DNA of 64,000 nucleotides from Rhodothalassiaceae bacterium. GTDB lineage: Bacteria > Pseudomonadota > Alphaproteobacteria > Sphingomonadales > Rhodothalassiaceae. Shown piece by piece: positions 54,157-64,000 of this stretch (position 1 is the stretch's first letter; every line of letters begins with the position of its first letter). The stretch is taken from assembly GCA_026004935.1 (NCBI GenBank), contig BPKC01000001.1, positions 2,367,381-2,431,380 of the forward strand, written 5' to 3'. The translations under genes and the position numbers were made by a program. The notes beneath the pieces are model-generated. The model was not told the origin of the DNA. It made no database searches and was given only the letters and a program-made list of their open reading frames with translations.

Positions 54157-54885
54157 TTACTCGGCGGCGGGGCCGGTGCCCGCCATGGCCCGGGCGGCGG
54201 CCAGACAGGCCTCGTCAAGTGGACCGCCCTCGATCTCCCGACACACGCGATTGTCGAGGGCGAGCCGTATGAGCCCCGGCTGGGCGTCGGAGGGCAGATG
54301 CGTAAGATAGCGCCCGGCCCGGTCCATCAGGAAGATGAAGGCCGTGTGCTCCATGAGATAGCCCTCCACGCGCGGGTCCTCGACCTTGCGGAACTCGACG
54401 CCGTATTGCGCCGCCGTGCGCGCGATCGCCTGCGGTGAGCCGGTCAGCATCCGGATTCGCGGATCGAAGTTCTGATGGAACGCCCGCAGCGCCTCGGGCG
54501 TGTCGCGCGCGGGGTCGACCGTGATGAAGACGGGCTGGACGAGGCGCGCGCGCACGGGATCGTCATGCGCGAACATCTCCAGCCCGCGGCTGACGTTGAG
54601 CAGCGTCAGCGGGCAGACGTCGGGACAGGAGGCATAGCCGAAGAACACCAGCATGTAGCGGCCGCGGAAATCGGTGTCGCGCACGGTACGGCCCTGCTCG
54701 TCGACGAGCGTGAAGGGCCCGCCGATCGGCGCGTCGAGGTCGACGCCGGCAAGGGGCCCGCGCTGGAGCCCCGCCAGCGCCATCAGGCGGCCGCGCAGCT
54801 CGGGCACCGCGAGCACGATGCCGACGAGTACGGCCAGCAGCACCGCAAGAGCCGGAATCAGCCGCCCGTCACCGGCCTTCGCCAT
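54157..54885 (-). CDS. SCO1/SenC family copper protein
   Basis: 242 residues. N-terminal membrane helix (about 10-28), then a thioredoxin fold with the copper site complete: CPDVC (Cys87, Cys91 in FFGYASCPDVCPLTLLNVS) and His180 (YLMEHTAFIFLMDRAGRYL), plus FITVDPARDTPEALRAF. SCO proteins deliver Cu to CuA-type cytochrome oxidase subunits or act as thiol reductants. No cytochrome oxidase genes are near; the gene closes the multicopper-oxidase locus, 46 bases after the cytochrome fusion gene. Confidence 0.92.
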   Translation of the reverse strand: MAKAGDGRLIPALAVLLAVLVGIVLAVPELRGRLMALAGLQRGPLAGVDLDAPIGGPFTLVDEQGRTVRDTDFRGRYMLVFFGYASCPDVCPLTLLNVSRGLEMFAHDDPVRARLVQPVFITVDPARDTPEALRAFHQNFDPRIRMLTGSPQAIARTAAQYGVEFRKVEDPRVEGYLMEHTAFIFLMDRAGRYLTHLPSDAQPGLIRLALDNRVCREIEGGPLDEACLAAARAMAGTGPAAE

Positions 54886-54931
54886 GTCGTCCCACCCCCT
54901 TCCATCCGCCGGCGGCCGGCCGTGCCGTCCC

Positions 54932-56695
54932 TCACCCGCCGATCACCACCCAGGGGCTCACCGGCACCGGGATCCGATCCACGGGATCCCAGCGCATGAT
55001 GTAGACCCCGCGCGAGGCGACCCGCTGCTCCGGCCCCAGCTCCGGGTGCGGGAAGGGACCGGGATCGAGGCCGACCTCGGTGATGTGCTCGAGGATCTCG
55101 ATCAGATAGTCGCGGTAGTAGTCGGCCTGCAAGGGCTCCAGCGCATTGTCCACCAGCCTCAGCGCGAAGAATGTCTCGCGCATGAGATTCCAGTCGGGAA
55201 TGGCCAGCCGGCGGGACCGGATCCAGGCCCGGGCGCGATAGGAATCGGGGTGCATGGCCTTGGGATCGTCGAAGCGGCTTGCGATCCGGATGCGCGCCGC
55301 GACCTGCGCCGGCAGTTCGACGCCCTTGAGGGCGGGCATGACGCTTCCCGGCAGATAGACGAGGTCGGGCAGCTCCTCCGGCTTCAGCCGGGCGAGAGCC
55401 GCGATCACCTGTGCTTCCTGACGGCCCGGGAAGACCACGGCCGCCGCACGTCCGGCAAGCGCGCGCAGCGCCCGGCGCCAGGCCCGCTCGCCGCCGACCT
55501 CCTCGCGCGCCGGCGCAGCGGGGGAGCCGGCCGCAGCCCACTCCCCCCCGAAGGCGTCGGCCGCGCGCCGCCCCCAGGGATCCGGCGCCGCGAGAACCGG
55601 CAGCGCGCCTTCGCCGAGCCGGGCCGGGTCCTCGGCCAGATAGCGGGCGAGCCCGCGCGCCTCGCCGACAAGCCCGAGGCTGAGATACAGCACGTAGCCG
55701 CCCTGGTAGCTCTCCTTGAGCGGCGGCAGCTCCACGACGGGAAAGATGCAGGCGAGGCGCTTTTCGTTGCAGAACGCGTCCACGGCATCGAAAGGCCCGT
55801 CCACCGCCCCGCCCAGCACGGCGAAGACGGGCTGGGCGGCGTAGAGATCCTCCAGCTGCGCTCTCCAGGTCTCGGGCGCGCCCTCGAGCCGCCAGTGGTG
55901 GATGGTCCATTTGCGGCGCGTATAGAGCAGATCCGAGCGGTAGAAGGGGCTGAAGCCGGGATGCGCCGTGTCGTTCGAGAAATCCCGGTTGAACCAGCCG
56001 GCGTAGGCGTCCACCAGCTTCTCGTAGGCCTCCGCCCGCTCGGGTGACACGCCGGGGCCGACGATCGTCGCGAAATGGAAGGTGTTGCCGTCCACCCCCG
56101 GATCCGGCGCGGCGCCCAGCCCGCGCAGGAAGGCGATCAGATTGGCGAGATCCGTCGGGCCCAGCCCGTAACGGGGCATGGTGGGATCGAGCGGCCGGCC
56201 GACAGGATCGGTGCCCTGGGTGATGGCGCGTGCGAGGGTCTCGTCGTCATATGCGGGTCTCAGCCGCGGCTTTCTGAGGTCGTCGTAGAAATAGGACGGC
56301 TGGAGCTGCTTGAAGTATTCCATGAAGCGCTCGAGCCTGAGCAGCATGTTGCTCTCGCGCGGCTGGAACAGATAGGGGGCCGCGATCGGCGGCACGTAAC
56401 GCCCGCCTTCGCTGGAACCCATCCCGGAGCGCCGATGGCAGCCGGTGCAGGGCACCTGGTCGCCGCGCACGGGGATGTCGCCCTGGGTGACGGCCTGGAC
56501 CGGCCGGCCGTCTGCACCGATGCCGGTCTCGTAGAGCCGGCGCCCGGCTTCGGGATCACCCGCCGGTCCCGACGGTGAAGGCGCCGCCGTCTCCTGTGGT
56601 GCCATCGCACCCACTGCAGCCGCAGACGGAAGGCCTGCCACCAGCAGGCCCAGGATGCCGAAAGCCGCTGCTGCGCACCGCCGTGGCATGCTCAC
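54932..56695 (-). CDS. Cytochrome c / periplasmic binding-protein fusion
   Basis: 587 residues from GTG 56695, whose GTGA overlaps the stop of the SCO gene upstream; GGAGG precedes it (ATG 56689 is an alternative). Signal peptide to about 28. A c-type heme site C83-TGC-H87 (QVPCTGCHRRSGMG) lies in a domain of about 45-205, with DPTMPRYGLGPTDLANLIAF supplying a candidate axial Met. Residues about 215-560 resemble a type I periplasmic binding protein, e.g. VFAVLGGAVDGPFDAVDAF, VLPVLAAPDPWGRRAADAFG and PDLVYLPGSVMPALKG. There is no transporter gene near, so the binding domain may sense or present a substrate. Confidence 0.75.
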   Translation of the reverse strand: MSMPRRCAAAAFGILGLLVAGLPSAAAVGAMAPQETAAPSPSGPAGDPEAGRRLYETGIGADGRPVQAVTQGDIPVRGDQVPCTGCHRRSGMGSSEGGRYVPPIAAPYLFQPRESNMLLRLERFMEYFKQLQPSYFYDDLRKPRLRPAYDDETLARAITQGTDPVGRPLDPTMPRYGLGPTDLANLIAFLRGLGAAPDPGVDGNTFHFATIVGPGVSPERAEAYEKLVDAYAGWFNRDFSNDTAHPGFSPFYRSDLLYTRRKWTIHHWRLEGAPETWRAQLEDLYAAQPVFAVLGGAVDGPFDAVDAFCNEKRLACIFPVVELPPLKESYQGGYVLYLSLGLVGEARGLARYLAEDPARLGEGALPVLAAPDPWGRRAADAFGGEWAAAGSPAAPAREEVGGERAWRRALRALAGRAAAVVFPGRQEAQVIAALARLKPEELPDLVYLPGSVMPALKGVELPAQVAARIRIASRFDDPKAMHPDSYRARAWIRSRRLAIPDWNLMRETFFALRLVDNALEPLQADYYRDYLIEILEHITEVGLDPGPFPHPELGPEQRVASRGVYIMRWDPVDRIPVPVSPWVVIGG

Positions 56696-57477
56696 CGCCC
56701 CCCTCCAGCCGTCGCATGGCTGGAGCCGGTCTCAAGCATGCCGGCGAAGGCGGCAATCATGCGCTGGCGCGACAGCAGCCGGTCGAATCGCAGCCAGTTG
56801 CCGGCGCGGTCGCGGAAATAGGTGTAGGGGCGGTGATACATCTTGTTGTCGGATCTGAGCAGCGCGTCGAAGGCCGCAATGGTGCGCCGGATCATGGGCT
56901 CCGACCCCGTGAGGAACCGCCAGTTCCCTGACGCATGATAGCGTGCGGCGTAGGCCTTCAGCCGCTCTGGCGTGTCATAGGTCGGATCGATCGAGATCGA
57001 CAGGATCAGCGCGTCCGGCGCGCGGCGCAGCAGCTCGTCCTGGGCGCTGGCGATCCCGGCCGACAGGACGGGACAGATCGTCGCGCAGCTCGTGAAGATG
57101 AACTGCATGACGACGGGCCGCGGCTCTGCAAGCAGCGCAGCGAGCCGCACCGGCCGCCCGTCCTGGTCCACGAGCGTGATGTCGTCCGGCACCCGATAGG
57201 CTGCGCGCTCCGGCTCGAGCGGCCCCGCATCATCGGCGCCCGCTGCGCTCTCATGCATGTAGAAGCGGATTCCGCCGTGCCCCATCTCCATCGGTGCACC
57301 GCGCTCATGCGCGCCATGGTCCGCATGATCGCCTGGGCCCCCGTGATCACCATGGCGCCCATGCCCCCCTTCCTGCGCCGGCGCCACGCCGCCCGCGACG
57401 ACGAGAAAGGCCGGCACGGCCGCAGCGGTGATGACCGCCTTCAGCGCCGTCCGGATTTTGCGCCCGAAGCCCGACAC
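56692..57477 (-). CDS. SCO family protein with His-rich N-terminal segment
   Basis: 261 residues from GTG 57477, with AGGAG six bases upstream. A signal peptide to about 35 is followed by a metal-binding-like His cluster at 38-67 (nine His, e.g. HGRHGDHGG and HADHGAHERG). The thioredoxin fold then has the Cys pair in FIFTSCATICPVLSA (Cys131/Cys135), SISIDPTYDTPERLKAYAAR and His215 in KMYHRPYTYFRDRAG. The His segment may buffer copper for the Cys/His site. First gene after the internal terminator, coupled to the cytochrome fusion. Confidence 0.88.
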   Translation of the reverse strand: MSGFGRKIRTALKAVITAAAVPAFLVVAGGVAPAQEGGHGRHGDHGGPGDHADHGAHERGAPMEMGHGGIRFYMHESAAGADDAGPLEPERAAYRVPDDITLVDQDGRPVRLAALLAEPRPVVMQFIFTSCATICPVLSAGIASAQDELLRRAPDALILSISIDPTYDTPERLKAYAARYHASGNWRFLTGSEPMIRRTIAAFDALLRSDNKMYHRPYTYFRDRAGNWLRFDRLLSRQRMIAAFAGMLETGSSHATAGGGR

Positions 57478-57561
57478 CGCTCTCTCCTCTCATCCCCATC
57501 GGCACGCGATGCAAGAACAGCAGAATGAGACTGCAATTTCAAGATGTTTCACAAAAGGGGA

Positions 57562-57592
57562 CTGCCGGGCCCCGCCATGCGGGACCCGGCAG
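57562..57592 (-). terminator. Rho-independent terminator inside the copper locus
   Basis: CTGCCGGG (57562-57569) pairs with CCCGGCAG (57585-57592), with an inner CCGC/GCGG. Read on the minus strand the hairpin is followed by TCCCCTTTTG. It sits between the 676-residue gene and the His-rich SCO gene, so the locus has at least two transcription units. Confidence 0.7.
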
Positions 57593-57624
57593 CCGGCCTT
57601 CCTATGCGATGGGCATGCGCGCCA

Positions 57625-59655
57625 TCAGTGCACCGACCAGATCGCCACGTTGTGGTGCATCGGGTCGAACTGATAGATCCGCAGCCGCTGCGGCGGGTCG
57701 TGCCGGAAGGTGATCACCACCTCCAGCTCGCCGATCCCGTCCGGCGTGGTGCTCTCGACGGTCTGCTCGGCGAATTCGTCGAACACCGGCAGAATCCCGC
57801 CCTTCGCCTTCCACGCCACCCGCTTCGCGTGCTGGCCGTAGACCGAGGGCAGCCCGAGCCTGCGGCCCTTGCCCTTGCCGCCCGGCCTGTAGTGGCCCTG
57901 GGCGATCAGCGCGAAGATGCTGTCGTCCTCGGGGCGCTCGGCCGCCGGCACCAGCACGGGCGGGAAGATGTTCGGGATCCAGTTGTGGCGCCCGAAGGTG
58001 AACCACGGACCCTGGCCGCCCAGCGGGATCGTGTTGTGGAAGATGTTCTCCCAGCCGCGGGCGCCGCCGAAGTCGATGTTGATGTAGCCGTGCGGGAAGT
58101 AGTCCCCGTTGAACAGCTTCACCTCGAGCGTCGCACCGCGAGTCTGGAACTCGTCCCAGGTCTGCTGGAAGTTGGACGGAATGCCCGGGATGTCCGCGTA
58201 GATCTGGTTGTTGAGGTAGACGAAGGTCTCGTCATAGCCTTCGGCCGGCTGGAAGCCGCGCGGCAGCTTGTTGCGATCCTTCCAGTCGTCGAAGGCCTCC
58301 TCGATCTCGCGGACCAGTGCGCGCAGGACGGGACGCGGCCCGCGGCCGTTCATGTCGCGCAGTGCCCGGAAGGCCTTCCACATGCGCTTGGCGGGTGCGT
58401 AGTCGCCGATCATCGAGATCGCGGCGAGCTTGTTTTCCTCGCTGCCGCGCGGGTCGGGACCGAAGGTCTCCGTCTCCCACTCGATGATGTTCTTCGGCCC
58501 CACCGTCTTCAGACCGTTCTCGACGGCCTGAATGCGCGTCGGGTGGATCCGCCAGCCCCAATGGTAGGTGAGGTTGTAGAACCGCCCGGGCGCATGGTCG
58601 AGCTCGAAGACGTAGCGCTTGCCCTCCTCCATCGGGAAGAAGGTCCCGTCGAAGGAGACGTTGGGCACCGCCGCGCCACCCCGCAGGTTCGGATCGTCGA
58701 AATACATGATCATCGGCGCGAAGTCTTCGTGCCCGCGCTCCGTCACGTCGATCGTGTAGCGGATCTTGAACGGCACGTCGCGCACATCACGCGCCCCCGC
58801 GCATGGGCCGGTCGGCAGCGGGCCCGGGCAGATGTAGGCGGTGTCCGACATGATGTTGCGCCGCGTCCACACCTGGTGGATGTGGAAGACGTTGTTCTCG
58901 TCCGCGTGCTGCACCTGCACGCCCGCCACGTAGTTCAGGACCGGAATCCCGCTGTAGGCGCGGTCGGGCAGCGGATTGCCCTCGAGGATGTCGATGGCCA
59001 TCTGCACGTCGGCGAGATCGATCTGGTTGACAGGATCGGGCAGCGTACCCGCCTCGGGCGGGAAGCGCTCCTCGACGCCCCGGCGCGGATCCGCCGGCAC
59101 GCCCACGCCGCCGCGGAAGAACATCTTCCGGGTCTTCAGCCGGATGATGGGGCTCACCGCCTCCTTCAGCCGCTTGATGATGATCGCCAGATCATCTTCG
59201 GGCCCGTGCTCGGACAGCCCCAGATCCTCCAGATCCGTCACCACCGGATCGGGATGGAGGTTGTAGGGATCCTCCGGCGTGGACGGCAGCGTGTTCGGGA
59301 TCTCGTTGCCCGCCGAGTCCTCCTGGTTGCCGTAAATCGTGGGCAGCAGGTTGGACGGGTTCGTCGCATCCTCGCCGAACGGATAGCTCTGCGGGAAGAG
59401 CGTACCCGGCGTGCGATACTCGAACCGTTTTCCGTCCAGCGTGCAGCGGCAGGGCTCGCCGTTCGGCCCCGGAATGTTCGAGGCCTGCAGGCATTCCGGC
59501 CTGTCGCTCACCACGCACTGGAAAGGCGGGAAGGTGGTCGGCCCCGGCATGGGGGCGAAAGGCTTGCTGGTCTGCGCGTGGGACAGAGCCGTCCCGGCGA
59601 GCAGAGCGGCGGGAACCGCCACCGCCAGCAGCTTGGTCTTGCGTTTCAAGGACAT
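57625..59655 (-). CDS. Large exported protein of unknown function in the multicopper-oxidase locus
   Basis: 676 residues from ATG 59655 with GGAGAGTGACC upstream. Signal peptide ends at AHAQ (about 27). I recognise no domain. A Cys-containing segment at 46-70 (FQCVVSDRPECL, EPCRCTLDGKRFEY) is followed by regions rich in His and aromatic residues: HADENNVFHIHQVWTRRN, YHWGWRIHPTRIQAVENG, FTFGRHNWIPNIFPP and the C-terminal RIYQFDPMHHNVAIWSVH. These could bind metal. Its position between two SCO-related genes and a multicopper oxidase implies a shared periplasmic role. Confidence 0.65.
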   Translation of the reverse strand: MSLKRKTKLLAVAVPAALLAGTALSHAQTSKPFAPMPGPTTFPPFQCVVSDRPECLQASNIPGPNGEPCRCTLDGKRFEYRTPGTLFPQSYPFGEDATNPSNLLPTIYGNQEDSAGNEIPNTLPSTPEDPYNLHPDPVVTDLEDLGLSEHGPEDDLAIIIKRLKEAVSPIIRLKTRKMFFRGGVGVPADPRRGVEERFPPEAGTLPDPVNQIDLADVQMAIDILEGNPLPDRAYSGIPVLNYVAGVQVQHADENNVFHIHQVWTRRNIMSDTAYICPGPLPTGPCAGARDVRDVPFKIRYTIDVTERGHEDFAPMIMYFDDPNLRGGAAVPNVSFDGTFFPMEEGKRYVFELDHAPGRFYNLTYHWGWRIHPTRIQAVENGLKTVGPKNIIEWETETFGPDPRGSEENKLAAISMIGDYAPAKRMWKAFRALRDMNGRGPRPVLRALVREIEEAFDDWKDRNKLPRGFQPAEGYDETFVYLNNQIYADIPGIPSNFQQTWDEFQTRGATLEVKLFNGDYFPHGYINIDFGGARGWENIFHNTIPLGGQGPWFTFGRHNWIPNIFPPVLVPAAERPEDDSIFALIAQGHYRPGGKGKGRRLGLPSVYGQHAKRVAWKAKGGILPVFDEFAEQTVESTTPDGIGELEVVITFRHDPPQRLRIYQFDPMHHNVAIWSVH

Positions 59656-59707
59656 GGTCACTCTCCAGAATTCCTGATCACACATGCGTTCCGGCCGTTG
59701 CGGCGCA

Positions 59708-60367
59708 TCACACATGCGCGCGGTTGCTCCACGGATAGGCGTTCTCGCCCGGCCGCGCGGGACCGGCGCGACGGAACACCTTGGGCTTCGGCTTCGGCAG
59801 GATGGACGCCACCCGCCAGGCGATGTCCTCGGGCCGCGCGTGGGAAGCCACGCTGCCCCAGACCCGCTGGCCGTTCATGGCGTTGCCGTAGAAGATCAGC
59901 CGGCCCATGCCCGCAGGCGCACCGCGGTTGAAGTGGTACATCCGCTGGGCGACGATCGCGGCCTCCAGCCCGCCCATCCGGACGAGCCGCCAGCCGTCGC
60001 GCACGCCGTGCTTCTTCGCATGCTCGGCGAGCGCCTCGACGGTGTCGTTCTCCGGATCGACGGTGATCGAGGTCACGAGGACGTCCCGGCCGACCCGGTC
60101 TCCCAGCGCCTTGACCGCCTTCGCGATCGCGGCCGTCTGGCCGGACGTCTCGTCGTCCTTGATGGAGAAGAAATTGATCAGAAAGATCTTCCCCTCCATG
60201 CAGTCTTCGTAGAACTTGAGCTTGCGCCCGGTGTGATCGACCGCCGTGATGTCCGGCAGACCGCAGCGGACATTGAGGTCGATCTCGTGCACCGAGGTGG
60301 GCGCCAGACCCTCGCCGGCCGCGCAGCTGCGGCGGGCATTGAGGATGTCGCGTCTTGTCGCAGTCAT
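59708..60367 (-). CDS. SCO-like thioredoxin-fold protein lacking the CxxxC motif
   Basis: 219 residues. FLINFFSIKDDETSGQTAAI stands where SCO proteins have FFGYASCxxxCP; the following VLVTSITVDPENDTVEALAE, and the His in AQRMYHFNRG, keep the SCO pattern. So the fold and the His remain but both copper-binding Cys are gone. N-terminal residues 1-30 show no clear signal peptide although MTATRRDILNARRS contains RRDIL and may be a Tat-like remnant. Located 43 bases after the oxidase gene. Confidence 0.7.
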   Translation of the reverse strand: MTATRRDILNARRSCAAGEGLAPTSVHEIDLNVRCGLPDITAVDHTGRKLKFYEDCMEGKIFLINFFSIKDDETSGQTAAIAKAVKALGDRVGRDVLVTSITVDPENDTVEALAEHAKKHGVRDGWRLVRMGGLEAAIVAQRMYHFNRGAPAGMGRLIFYGNAMNGQRVWGSVASHARPEDIAWRVASILPKPKPKVFRRAGPARPGENAYPWSNRAHV

Positions 60368-60410
60368 CGCTTGACTTCCTTTCCTGGCATTCCGTGTCGC
60401 ATCGACGCGA

Positions 60411-62222
60411 TCAGTCGCCCATGCCCGGCTCGACGATGTCCCAGCGGATCATCATCGAGTGGTCCTCATGCACGACATTGTGGCAGTGCATGACGTAGGG
60501 GCCGAACCAGTCGCGCCAGCGGCCGAAGAACTTGATCTGGTCGCCCGGGGCGAGCCGGACCACGTCCTTCTTGGTGTCGCGCACGGCATTGAAGGGTACG
60601 GGCTTGCCGTTGACCTCGTAGATCTGGAACTCCTCCATGTGGGTGTGCACGGGGTGCGCCCAGGAGTCGCCCATGTTCACGAGGGTCCACAGCTCGGCCG
60701 AACCCTGCTCGATGGCCGCATCGACGCGGTTGGGATCCATGAGACGGCCGTTCACGGTGAACAGACCGTTGTCGTAATCCCAGTACCAGACGCGTTCGCG
60801 CCGCACCTCGCGGAAGTCGATGTCGGGCTGCTGGAAGAAGTAGTCGGGAATCCGGCTCGGATCCTCGACATGGCCGCCGACCACGCGGAACTGCATGATC
60901 GGGATGCCCTCGTCGAGCAGCCGCCCCGTCGGACCTTCACCGGTCTCGCGGATGTCGAGCCGGTTGACGAGATAGACGTTGTCGCCCGGATTGAAGTGCG
61001 AGAAGTCGAGGATGACGTCCGAACGGTTGGCCACCCACAGCTCGATGTGGTCGGTCTCGATCGGCGAGGTGTGGAAGTTGCCGTCTTCCGTCAGCATGAT
61101 GAACTTCAGGCCCTTCCTGGCCTTCGGATCCGCGCTGTCGGTGGTCAGCCACAGATCGTAGAGCCGGCTCGGGCCGCCGTTCAGGATGCGGAAGCGGTAC
61201 TTGCGGCGCTTGACCTCCAGATAGGGCTGGATGGTCCGGTTCACCGTCATGGTATCACCCAGCATGCCGAAGGTGGTGTGCTGGAAGGACGGGAACCACT
61301 CGCCGTCGATCTCCTGTGCGGCCGGCGAGAAGAAGTCCCAGACCACCTGACCGTTCTCGTCGAACTGCACGTCGTGCAGGATGAGCGGGATGTCGTATTC
61401 GCCGCTCGGCAGACGATAGGCCCGCGGATTCGGGTCGCGCTCGTTGTCCGAGTCGTACTCGGTGAAGTTGAGCCACATGCCCGAATGGCCCGCGTAGACG
61501 TTGGTCGCCGTGAAGTCGAGCCGGTGGTCGTGGTACCACTTCGTCGTGAGGATCTCCCGCGGGTCGTTGCCGGCGGGGAACATCGCGTAGTGATGATCCC
61601 AGAACTCGCCCGGATCGAAGTAGTCCTGCGGGATGCCGTCCGACTCGGAGGCCGTGTGGAAGTTGTGCAGATGGATCGAGAACGACGACAGCGCCCAGGG
61701 CACATTGCTCTGGCCGAGGGGCGGATGGTCGTTGATCCGCCGCACGAACACCGGCTCGCCGTACCAGGCCTTGTAGGTCGGGCCGGGCGCGATGCCGGTG
61801 AAGTTGTCGGACGAGAACAGGAAGTGCATCGAGCCCTGGTTGTAGGGCGGCTCGGGGTGATAGATCCACCGGCCCTGGTGCAGCCGCTCGTAATAGAATT
61901 TGCGCGGCGGGAACTCGTGCCAGCGCTGATGCCGGTCGGGATCCGGCGGGGTGCCGCCGACGTCCGGATCGAGCAGCCGCGAGGGATGGATCGGCTGCGC
62001 GATCGGCATCCGGAACAGCGGCGCCGTGAACGGCGTCACCTTCGGCGACGGCCGCGAGACCAGTGACGGTCGGAAGTTCTGGGGAAAGACCAGACCAGAC
62101 TGGGGAAATGCCCCAGGCTGACGGTCCAGCTCGTGATTCTTGCCGGCGGACACGTATTTGGCCGCAAGGCCCGCGCCCGCAACGGCAGCACCGAGCTTCA
62201 GTGCGTCACGCCGTTTCAACAT
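60411..62222 (-). CDS. Tat-exported multicopper oxidase
   Basis: 603 residues; AGGAGAGGTCCAC precedes ATG. Tat-type signal (MLKRRDALKLGAAVAGAGLA). The four Cu motifs are complete: HLH (184-186), HDH (231-233, KWYHDHRLDFTATNVYAG), HPVHTH (523-528) and HCHNVVHEDHSM (579-590), whose M590 is the type-1 axial ligand. Three cupredoxin domains. It oxidises one-electron donors (phenols, bilirubin-like compounds or metal ions) and reduces O2 to water in the periplasm. It heads the operon; the long gap upstream must hold its promoter. Confidence 0.93.
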   Translation of the reverse strand: MLKRRDALKLGAAVAGAGLAAKYVSAGKNHELDRQPGAFPQSGLVFPQNFRPSLVSRPSPKVTPFTAPLFRMPIAQPIHPSRLLDPDVGGTPPDPDRHQRWHEFPPRKFYYERLHQGRWIYHPEPPYNQGSMHFLFSSDNFTGIAPGPTYKAWYGEPVFVRRINDHPPLGQSNVPWALSSFSIHLHNFHTASESDGIPQDYFDPGEFWDHHYAMFPAGNDPREILTTKWYHDHRLDFTATNVYAGHSGMWLNFTEYDSDNERDPNPRAYRLPSGEYDIPLILHDVQFDENGQVVWDFFSPAAQEIDGEWFPSFQHTTFGMLGDTMTVNRTIQPYLEVKRRKYRFRILNGGPSRLYDLWLTTDSADPKARKGLKFIMLTEDGNFHTSPIETDHIELWVANRSDVILDFSHFNPGDNVYLVNRLDIRETGEGPTGRLLDEGIPIMQFRVVGGHVEDPSRIPDYFFQQPDIDFREVRRERVWYWDYDNGLFTVNGRLMDPNRVDAAIEQGSAELWTLVNMGDSWAHPVHTHMEEFQIYEVNGKPVPFNAVRDTKKDVVRLAPGDQIKFFGRWRDWFGPYVMHCHNVVHEDHSMMIRWDIVEPGMGD

Positions 62223-63424
62223 GTGGACCTCTCCTGATTGACCTGTTTCAAGGACGAACCCCTGCTCCCGTTGCGGCGGGAACAGACAAGGCCGGCCCGA
62301 TGAGAGCTGCGAAAAGCGTCGGAGGGGCGGATGCCTTCGTCACTCCACGACATGACATCATGCACACCACCGGATCACCGCATTCCTTCCGGGCCTTCAT
62401 CGCCCCGGTGCGCCACGGGTGGCGCCAGCCCCGGTGTCGGCGGGTGATGCGGAAGCGCAGAAGACTCGGGACACCCCGGAAAACACGGAATGTTCGCTTT
62501 CAGGCCTCCCCTGCCCTGCCGGCCCGCGATTCCCGTGACGACGTGCGCCCAATTCAGATGCCGCATTCACGGGTCGCGATGCCGGCCGACGTTCCCCGAT
62601 GAGGGCCTGGCGAACCGCGATGTCTCTCCTCCTTCGCCCCTGCACAACCCCTGTTTGCCGAACCTTGCGATGGCGAGCCTAAACCCATTTCCTACGGGCT
62701 TGCAAGTTTCAATTTGTGACAATTGTGTTGCAGGTGTCACGGCGGCGCATGCCTTGCCCATCGGCGCTTTCCGCAACCCGTTCCCAATACACGACTTTTC
62801 ACGATCGCGTGAGGACGCTCGGGCCGCCCGAATCTCCGGGTCGCCCGCCGCCGGGAAGACTCGCCCGCCCGCCCCTTCTGCCGGCTTGAGAACCGATTCC
62901 CGCCGCCACCCTTGTCGGTCGAGAAATCATTTCTCTTTTTATATCAGAGACATGCATGTGATTTCCGATTCGCGGCAAAATGCCGCGGACCTTGGTGCAC
63001 GATGACGACTCCCCTTGCGCCGCCGTCGGAAGGAGCGCAGCACATCCGCAAATTCATTGCCCCACAGGCATTTCCGCTCACGAACCGGTGAAAAATGTCC
63101 TGTCTCGGCTGGCGTGCCGGCAGGCGGGATTCCCGATTCGGAGCCGGCGGCGCCTTGTCAGACGCGATCTTTTCCTTCAACAGGCGGAAGCACGGGGAAA
63201 GGGACGGCGGAGAAAATCCGGCAAATGATCGTTTCCAACGTTTCGTCATGTATTTCGCGCGCGGCGCGCAGCGGCATTATGTCGCACGCGCACGCGCCGG
63301 CCGCGCGGGCGGCCGGGGCCTGTGCGAGCCGCCCACTCTTCCTTATACTCGAAGCGCGGGCCGGGCCGCCGCCTCGGAAGGCACGCACCGGCCGAGGGAG
63401 CGGTGGCGAGGAGGGGAGGCGGGC
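62223..63424. other. 1.2 kb gene-free intergenic region
   Basis: No frame here has a convincing ribosome site and codon pattern; the longest (62490-63005 plus) has mixed codon use. The divergent promoters of the multicopper-oxidase operon (left) and the GspE-like gene (right) must lie here. Notable marks: GTGACA/TGTCAC inverted pair at about 62716-62740 in an AT-rich tract; CGCGGCA-AAA-TGCCGCG hairpin at 62971-62987; and an AT-rich block at 62925-62970. No tRNA or RNA gene was recognised. Confidence 0.5.
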
Positions 63425-64000
63425 ATGGCCGTGATGGCTCGGAACGGGCGCACAGGGGAGACCGCGCCGATGGAAGACACCGGCGGCGACGGCGACGCGC
63501 TTGCGATGCTCGCGGCCGCGCTGAAGGCGCGCGGGCGCGACGAGGCCGTGCTCGCGCGCGCGCGCCGGGCGGCTGCGGCCTCCGGCGAGCGGCTGGTCAA
63601 GGTGCTGCTAAAGCTCGGCCTCGTCGGCGAGCGCGAGCTCGCCGAGGCGCTCGCCGAGGCCCTGGAGCTGCCCCTCGTCACCGCGGACGGCTTTCCCGAG
63701 ACGCCGCTCTTCGAGGACCGGGTGAGCCCCCGCTTTCTGGCGGAAGAAGGTCTGCTTCCCGTCCGCGAGGAGGAGGGGCGCGTCGTCGTCGCGGCGGTGG
63801 ATCCGACCGCGCACGAGGCGCTCGATGCGCTCGCGCTTGCCCTCGGCCGGCCGGTCGCGCCGGCGGTGGCGCCGCACAGCGAGATCGAGGCGGCGATCGC
63901 CAGGCTCTACGCCGCGGGTTCCCAGCTCGAGACCGAGGCGGCGCTCGAGGAGGAGATGGACGGCGGCGACGCGCTGGCCACCGACATCGAGCGGCTCCGG
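63425..64000 (+). CDS. GspE/PilB-type secretion ATPase, N-terminal part (runs off the window)
   Basis: The frame from ATG 63425 (GAGGGGAGGCGGGC upstream) stays open for 192 codons to the window end. After a short polar start comes a GSPII_E_N/MshEN-type domain: GERLVKVLLKLGLVGERELA, EALAEALELPLVTADGFPE, FLAEEGLLPVREEEGRVVVA and AVAPHSEIEAAIARLYAAGS. In full-length proteins this precedes the hexameric ATPase of type II secretion or type IV pilus assembly; the Walker motifs lie outside the window, so the exact system is open. Confidence 0.8.
   Translation, partial: MAVMARNGRTGETAPMEDTGGDGDALAMLAAALKARGRDEAVLARARRAAAASGERLVKVLLKLGLVGERELAEALAEALELPLVTADGFPETPLFEDRVSPRFLAEEGLLPVREEEGRVVVAAVDPTAHEALDALALALGRPVAPAVAPHSEIEAAIARLYAAGSQLETEAALEEEMDGGDALATDIERLR

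Follow-up and report, generated by a model that had tools for sequence, protein, structure and literature searches.

The locus at positions 54157-62222 of the window (the whole stretch of 64,000 nucleotides analysed here) raises the question of whether six neighbouring genes form one oxidase system and, if they do, what that system oxidises. The original prediction described them as a candidate uncharacterised, O2-reducing periplasmic copper-oxidase system built around a multicopper oxidase (MCO), and listed them as same-strand genes in transcription order. All six open reading frames were indeed found across this span, in that order and on the minus strand. They are listed below in the direction of transcription, followed by a neighbouring secretion operon.

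60411..62222, minus strand: MCO, 603 aa, Tat-type RR start, bilirubin-oxidase/CotA-like, putative catalytic subunit (PF07731, PDB matches, Cu ligands)
59708..60367, minus strand: SCO-fold protein without CxxxC, 219 aa, between the MCO and U676 (PF02630, E 5e-8)
57625..59655, minus strand: U676, exported protein of 676 aa, unnamed family (no family match; 11-member alignment)
57560..57594, minus strand: terminator-like hairpin of 16 pairs, separating U676 from the latter part of the cassette (hairpin scan)
56692..57477, minus strand: canonical SCO, His-rich towards the N-terminus, with CxxxCP and distal His (PF02630, E 2e-19; ligands conserved)
54932..56695, minus strand: cytochrome c (CxxCH)-type I periplasmic binding protein fusion, MofC-like (hhalign; tree)
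54157..54885, minus strand: third SCO, canonical, a family-specific addition (PF02630, E 7e-46)
63095..64000, plus strand: type II secretion (T2SS) operon, divergent, GspE first, candidate export route (the ORF runs past the window end)

Sequences resembling ribosome-binding sites can be recognised by eye upstream of the gene starts. U676 is read from the ATG at 59655, within a longer frame of 696 aa that starts at 59715. The terminator that was proposed after U676 has a counterpart in the 16-pair hairpin at 57594-57560, which carries a short T run, but the six terminator-like sites of the region barely exceed the shuffle mean of 4.7.

The oxidase, the SCO proteins and the cytochrome fusion

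The MCO contains the complete set of type 1, 2 and 3 copper ligands (H184/H186, H231/H233, H523/H526/H528, H579-C580-H581, H585 and M590), all of them invariant in a 17-row alignment. Together with the RR (Tat-like) N-terminus, this agrees with its description as a Tat oxidase with all Cu ligands. It is the only match to PF07731 (Cu-oxidase_2) in the genome (E 2e-16, above the cut-off), while the Cu-oxidase_3 and Cu-oxidase models stay below theirs. The PDB matches are bilirubin oxidase (E 4e-42, aligned over 119-595) and CotA (E 5e-40), which the protein resembles in overall sequence and in all copper ligands. These laccases act as single proteins, however, whereas the cassette MCO comes with linked partner genes and a Tat-type start. 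The best NCBIfam match is to the o-aminophenol oxidase model, with CueO a distant one; the search gave no match to NF041487, and with 603 aa the enzyme is not of the giant MnxG/MofA type.

The three SCO genes of the region are the only ones found in the genome, and each was recovered with the traits ascribed to it. The protein encoded next to the MCO is devoid of CxxxC in all 18 aligned rows, including that of the window. In the His-rich SCO (57477-56692), CATICP and NKMYH are in place, the CxxxC motif and the distal His being conserved. The idea that the SCO proteins metallate the oxidase can be upheld for this canonical SCO, a plausible copper donor, but the Cys-less protein lacks copper ligands in all of its relatives and, judging from these alignments, is therefore unlikely to metallate the MCO. 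No cytochrome oxidase genes occur within the region, as had been pointed out, although COX1-type oxidases are encoded elsewhere in the genome. Since no SCO genes beyond these three were found in the genome, the third SCO may serve those oxidases instead.

The Cys-less SCO has kept an RR motif, and the hydrophobic signal stretch is missing in the window and in some close relatives; the Tat-like signal is fuller in relatives from other lineages. The protein might leave the cell as a hitchhiker, with the Tat-exported MCO as its carrier.

In the fusion, a CxxCH cytochrome c is joined to a Peripla_BP_6 domain. Both parts remain below the Pfam cut-offs but were confirmed by profile comparison, which bears out the cytochrome c-type I binding-protein fusion of the original prediction.

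U676, a protein of an unnamed family

U676 starts with a Sec-type signal peptide (by eye) and found no match in Pfam or NCBIfam and no sequence match in the PDB. It had been called an unrecognised, exported and His/aromatic-rich protein. The first of these labels stands, but the enrichment is just mild (2.8% His; 10.4% Phe, Trp and Tyr combined).

A longer subfamily, with frames of 736-896 aa, was found in Acidobacteriota and in one Nitrosomonadaceae genome (profile comparison, E 8e-30), and apparently has no name. Three of the four divergent loci, namely L066:4435-12501, L068:937-8872 and L069:1590-8559, adjoin giant MCOs. These measure 1566-1782 aa, and MnxG is their top NCBIfam match, though below the cut-off (E 1e-41 to 1e-57). 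At the fourth (L067:8091-10781), no MCO lies within reach. Across both subfamilies H371, H668, H676, Y364, W366, W368, D518, D528 and D664 are invariant, which suggests a possible metal site of three histidines. No Cys is invariant in the family alignments, so that the Cys ligand of type 1 copper is lacking. Relatives of U676 accompany two unrelated kinds of MCO (CotA-like and MnxG-like), and the protein, with its three invariant histidines, therefore has the look of a partner to MCOs in general. By sequence it is not a fragment of MnxG; that candidate was rejected at an hhalign probability of 0.1.

Two AF2 models of U676 reached a pLDDT of 60 and 64, and at values near 60 they were used for the broad fold class alone. 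Foldseek returned MCOs and cupredoxins for nearly all of the best matches (E 6e-5 to 1e-3, TM 0.1-0.2). VIA-align gave Z 5-7 to rusticyanin and CuA domains, a range that common arrangements also reach, and the helix-bundle matches at Z 8-12 derive from the helical parts and are uninformative. From these low-confidence models, which resemble multidomain cupredoxins, U676 probably consists of cupredoxin-like domains with a helical insert. No relative was found in the plasmid collection or in viral contigs; a BFVD search yielded one weak match, a viral copper oxidase.

Distribution and conservation of the cassette

U676 served as bait for relatives, with exact peptide patterns over 84,980 species genomes and with profiles. 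The exact patterns retrieved nine further loci, and the profiles added more; even so, the family is rare. In sampled groups (counts take in the starting genome wherever it belonged to the sample), U676 occurs in 4/6 relatives within the bacterial family of the window and in none of the rest of the order sampled, in 1/385 Alphaproteobacteria (the window's own genome), in 3/398 Pseudomonadota, and in 9/120 genomes from the family to which the Nitrosomonas locus belongs, with a divergent member among the nine.

Four phyla share a cassette made up of MCO, Cys-less SCO, U676, canonical SCO and fusion, the core being found in Alpha-, Beta- and Gammaproteobacteria, Acidobacteriota, Planctomycetota and Bacteroidota. 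The order MCO-SCO-U676 is kept in every locus with enough flank (L009-L013, L015, L016, L064, L065, L070-L075 and L077) and, split over contigs, in L080/L014 and L081/L017. The proposed check for co-occurrence of U676 with the oxidase thus found the two together wherever flanks allowed, and the notion that the six genes are scattered singly elsewhere was rejected. Divergence of the genes is correlated as well (pairwise distances, r 0.75-0.86, 0/2000 permutations). Shared host ancestry explains part of this correlation, so the conserved gene order is the firmer evidence that the genes form a unit. Of the six genes first proposed as the system, five belong to this recurring unit, but the third SCO appears downstream only in L009, L074, L075 and L076, all from the window's family.

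Canonical SCO and fusion come after the core in most loci. In L080, from Planctomycetota, they run divergently to the MCO, and they do not adjoin the core in L012 or in the Nitrosomonas group with CusAB-type genes. In place of the SCO-fusion pair, that group (L016:7272-16374 and L065:6928-17543) has genes for CusB/CusA-type efflux, a DsbA-like protein and a small cytochrome c behind the core. Ferruginivarius sediminum (L010:1-11794) has two tandem MCO-SCO-U676 cores with one SCO-fusion pair between them. L002, where U676 is followed by an MCO at the contig edge, is best read as a tandem core array of the same kind. The window's relative G002, to which L002 and L076 belong, resembles the Ferruginivarius arrangement.

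About 1 kb upstream of the cassette, on the opposite strand, lies a type II secretion cluster with GspE first and F, H, C and D beyond the window. Such a cluster also stands beside the cassette in L009, L074 and L075, and T2SS genes occur near the mnxG-type locus L100 and near L112, but the adjacency was not found at the other cassette loci examined. If the divergent cluster is counted, the system may extend past 54157-62222. The T2SS operon was recorded both at 63095-64000 of the window and as L114.

Relation to the mnxG and mofABC operons

One of the closest known counterparts is the mnxG operon of Pseudomonas putida GB-1, which comprises mnxG, a YVTN beta-propeller, two successive SCO genes, a cytochrome c-ABC binding protein and SurA (PMC11409713, Table 4). 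The flanks of MnxG-type oxidases in the loci collected here match this gene content: they contain a downstream beta-propeller gene (L100-L104), SCO genes (two of them in L100, L102 and L103), a PPIase gene (L100) and a fusion homologous to that of the window. Both fusions align over nearly the whole protein (hhalign 99.9%, E 1.4e-35, 447 columns). With the GB-1 operon, the cassette shares an MCO in first position, SCO-family genes, the homologous fusion and the order SCO-then-fusion; L100 also has T2SS genes alongside, as in the window. MnxG, by contrast, measures about 1,900 aa against 603 aa for the cassette MCO, U676 takes the place of the beta-propeller, and the two SCO genes of the mnxG operon both encode CxxxC, whereas only one of the two SCO-fold genes of the conserved cassette does. 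Neither a YVTN beta-propeller nor a PPIase (SurA) gene is present in the window's cassette.

The mofABC operon of Leptothrix and the OmpB/MofA clusters likewise share an MCO, a SCO chaperone and MofC with the cassette (PMC5566968, PMC8218464), the MofC proteins combining a cytochrome c with a periplasmic binding domain (PMC5566968). However, mofABC includes a giant MofA and the PPIase MofB, which the cassette lacks, and no relative of U676 is mentioned for it (PMC5566968, PMC8218464). MnxEFG of Bacillus is comparable as an MCO that depends on accessory subunits. MCO-type manganese oxidases can need such partners, and MnxEF may hold type 2 copper on three histidines (PMC5622069), as U676 might. 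MnxE and MnxF are far smaller than U676, and no sequence relation to it is claimed.

Long fusions were found in 4/388 Pseudomonadota genomes, in two cassettes, one mnxG-type operon and L112, each time with a SCO gene and an MCO or cupredoxin-like gene. In L112 (L112:5555-11829), a 693-aa protein with a weak cupredoxin match and Big_9/cadherin repeats is followed by a SCO and then by the MofC-like fusion; it is possibly a third oxidase type of such operons. L113 gave a weak match to the cytochrome part of the fusion alone, with no MCO confidently assigned. In the MofC tree the branching order inside the cassette clade is not fixed and, with long branches, the mnx rooting is unsure.

No description of the whole cassette was found in the literature searched, and U676 matches no named family in Pfam or NCBIfam. 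The system is nevertheless not wholly uncharacterised, as the original prediction had it, because its fusion and SCO genes are common to the mnxG/mofABC manganese-oxidase operons. It is kept apart from these operons because the giant MCO, the propeller and the PPIase are absent.

Proposed mechanism and alternatives

We consider it close to an even chance that the cassette encodes a metal-oxidase complex for export, operating in the manner of MnxG/MofA, with Mn(II) as the most likely substrate. The MCO would oxidise the substrate and reduce O2 after being loaded with copper by the canonical SCO. The Cys-less SCO and U676 would be accessory subunits travelling with the MCO, and the three invariant histidines of U676, whose fold is probably that of a cupredoxin, may bind a metal. 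The MofC-like fusion would serve to carry electrons or to prime copper, and the neighbouring T2SS may bring the complex to the cell surface.

This explanation is favoured by the core order, the homology of the fusion, the presence of U676 relatives beside giant MCOs and the T2SS adjacency, and by Mn(II) oxidation being within reach of a CotA-type MCO (PMC3618234). Manganese oxidation in Pseudomonas also needs cytochrome c maturation genes (PMC11409713). On the other hand, the MCO is of a different type, propeller and PPIase are missing, the T2SS is mostly not adjacent, and fusions of the MofC type are found as well with MCOs that have another or an unproven substrate, such as OmpB of Geobacter and the tandem MCOs of Sideroxydans (PMC5566968). 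The literature searched yielded no report in which Mn oxidation by a cassette member had been tested.

The CusA/CusB-type efflux genes after the Nitrosomonas core, joined by a CusA-like gene near L011 (by its sequence start), could point to copper. The MCO would then be a periplasmic, CueO/CopA-like cuprous oxidase of copper tolerance, with the SCO proteins and U676 buffering copper, in line with its being the genome's only Cu-oxidase_2 protein and with the distant CueO match. That match amounts to 120 of 525 bits, however, and the one to CopA to 15 of 479, both far below the cut-offs, and the surroundings of the window's cassette showed no copper efflux gene. A MofC-type cytochrome fusion is not known from cue/cop systems either, and copper tolerance appears unlikely. 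We rate a laccase-type system as a weaker candidate still. In this reading the binding domain of the fusion would capture a small organic substrate for oxidation by the MCO; the original prediction had inferred substrate capture by the fusion or by U676. Amino acids or amides are the usual ligands of Peripla_BP_6 domains, the closest solved MCOs are bilirubin oxidase and CotA, and o-aminophenol oxidase heads the NCBIfam matches. Yet the mnxG-type operons, known to act on Mn(II), use the same fusion, and no recurrent uptake or catabolic genes were seen around the cassette.

In iron oxidisers, clusters of MofC-like, SCO and MCO genes have also been put forward as candidates for extracellular electron transfer (PMC5566968), so that the cassette could function in Fe(II) oxidation or electron transfer at the cell surface, as proposed for OmpB/MofA homologues. 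This seems very improbable, as no multihaem cytochrome or porin was observed recurring beside it. Its hosts include heterotrophs and nitrifiers that are not known as iron oxidisers.

Implications

Manganese oxidation by an exported complex is thus the preferred reading, and it touches on how bacteria other than a few models carry out Mn oxidation and on why MCO-based Mn oxidases need helpers. The cassette is rare yet widely shared, and its U676 was previously unnamed. By combining a small CotA-like oxidase with the SCO/MofC kit of mnxG operons and a new partner family, it offers a tractable test system, and the partner family, common to the cassette and the giant oxidases, provides a marker gene for finding such organisms. 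More speculatively, and on balance rather doubtfully, U676 and its divergent relatives would be metal-binding subunits of oxidases and form a family of their own, a new one, which short CotA-like as well as giant MnxG-like MCOs have recruited and which supplies a metal-substrate or copper site that metal oxidation requires. The cassette would then represent an unrecognised manganese-oxidase system that has spread horizontally, ammonia oxidisers included.
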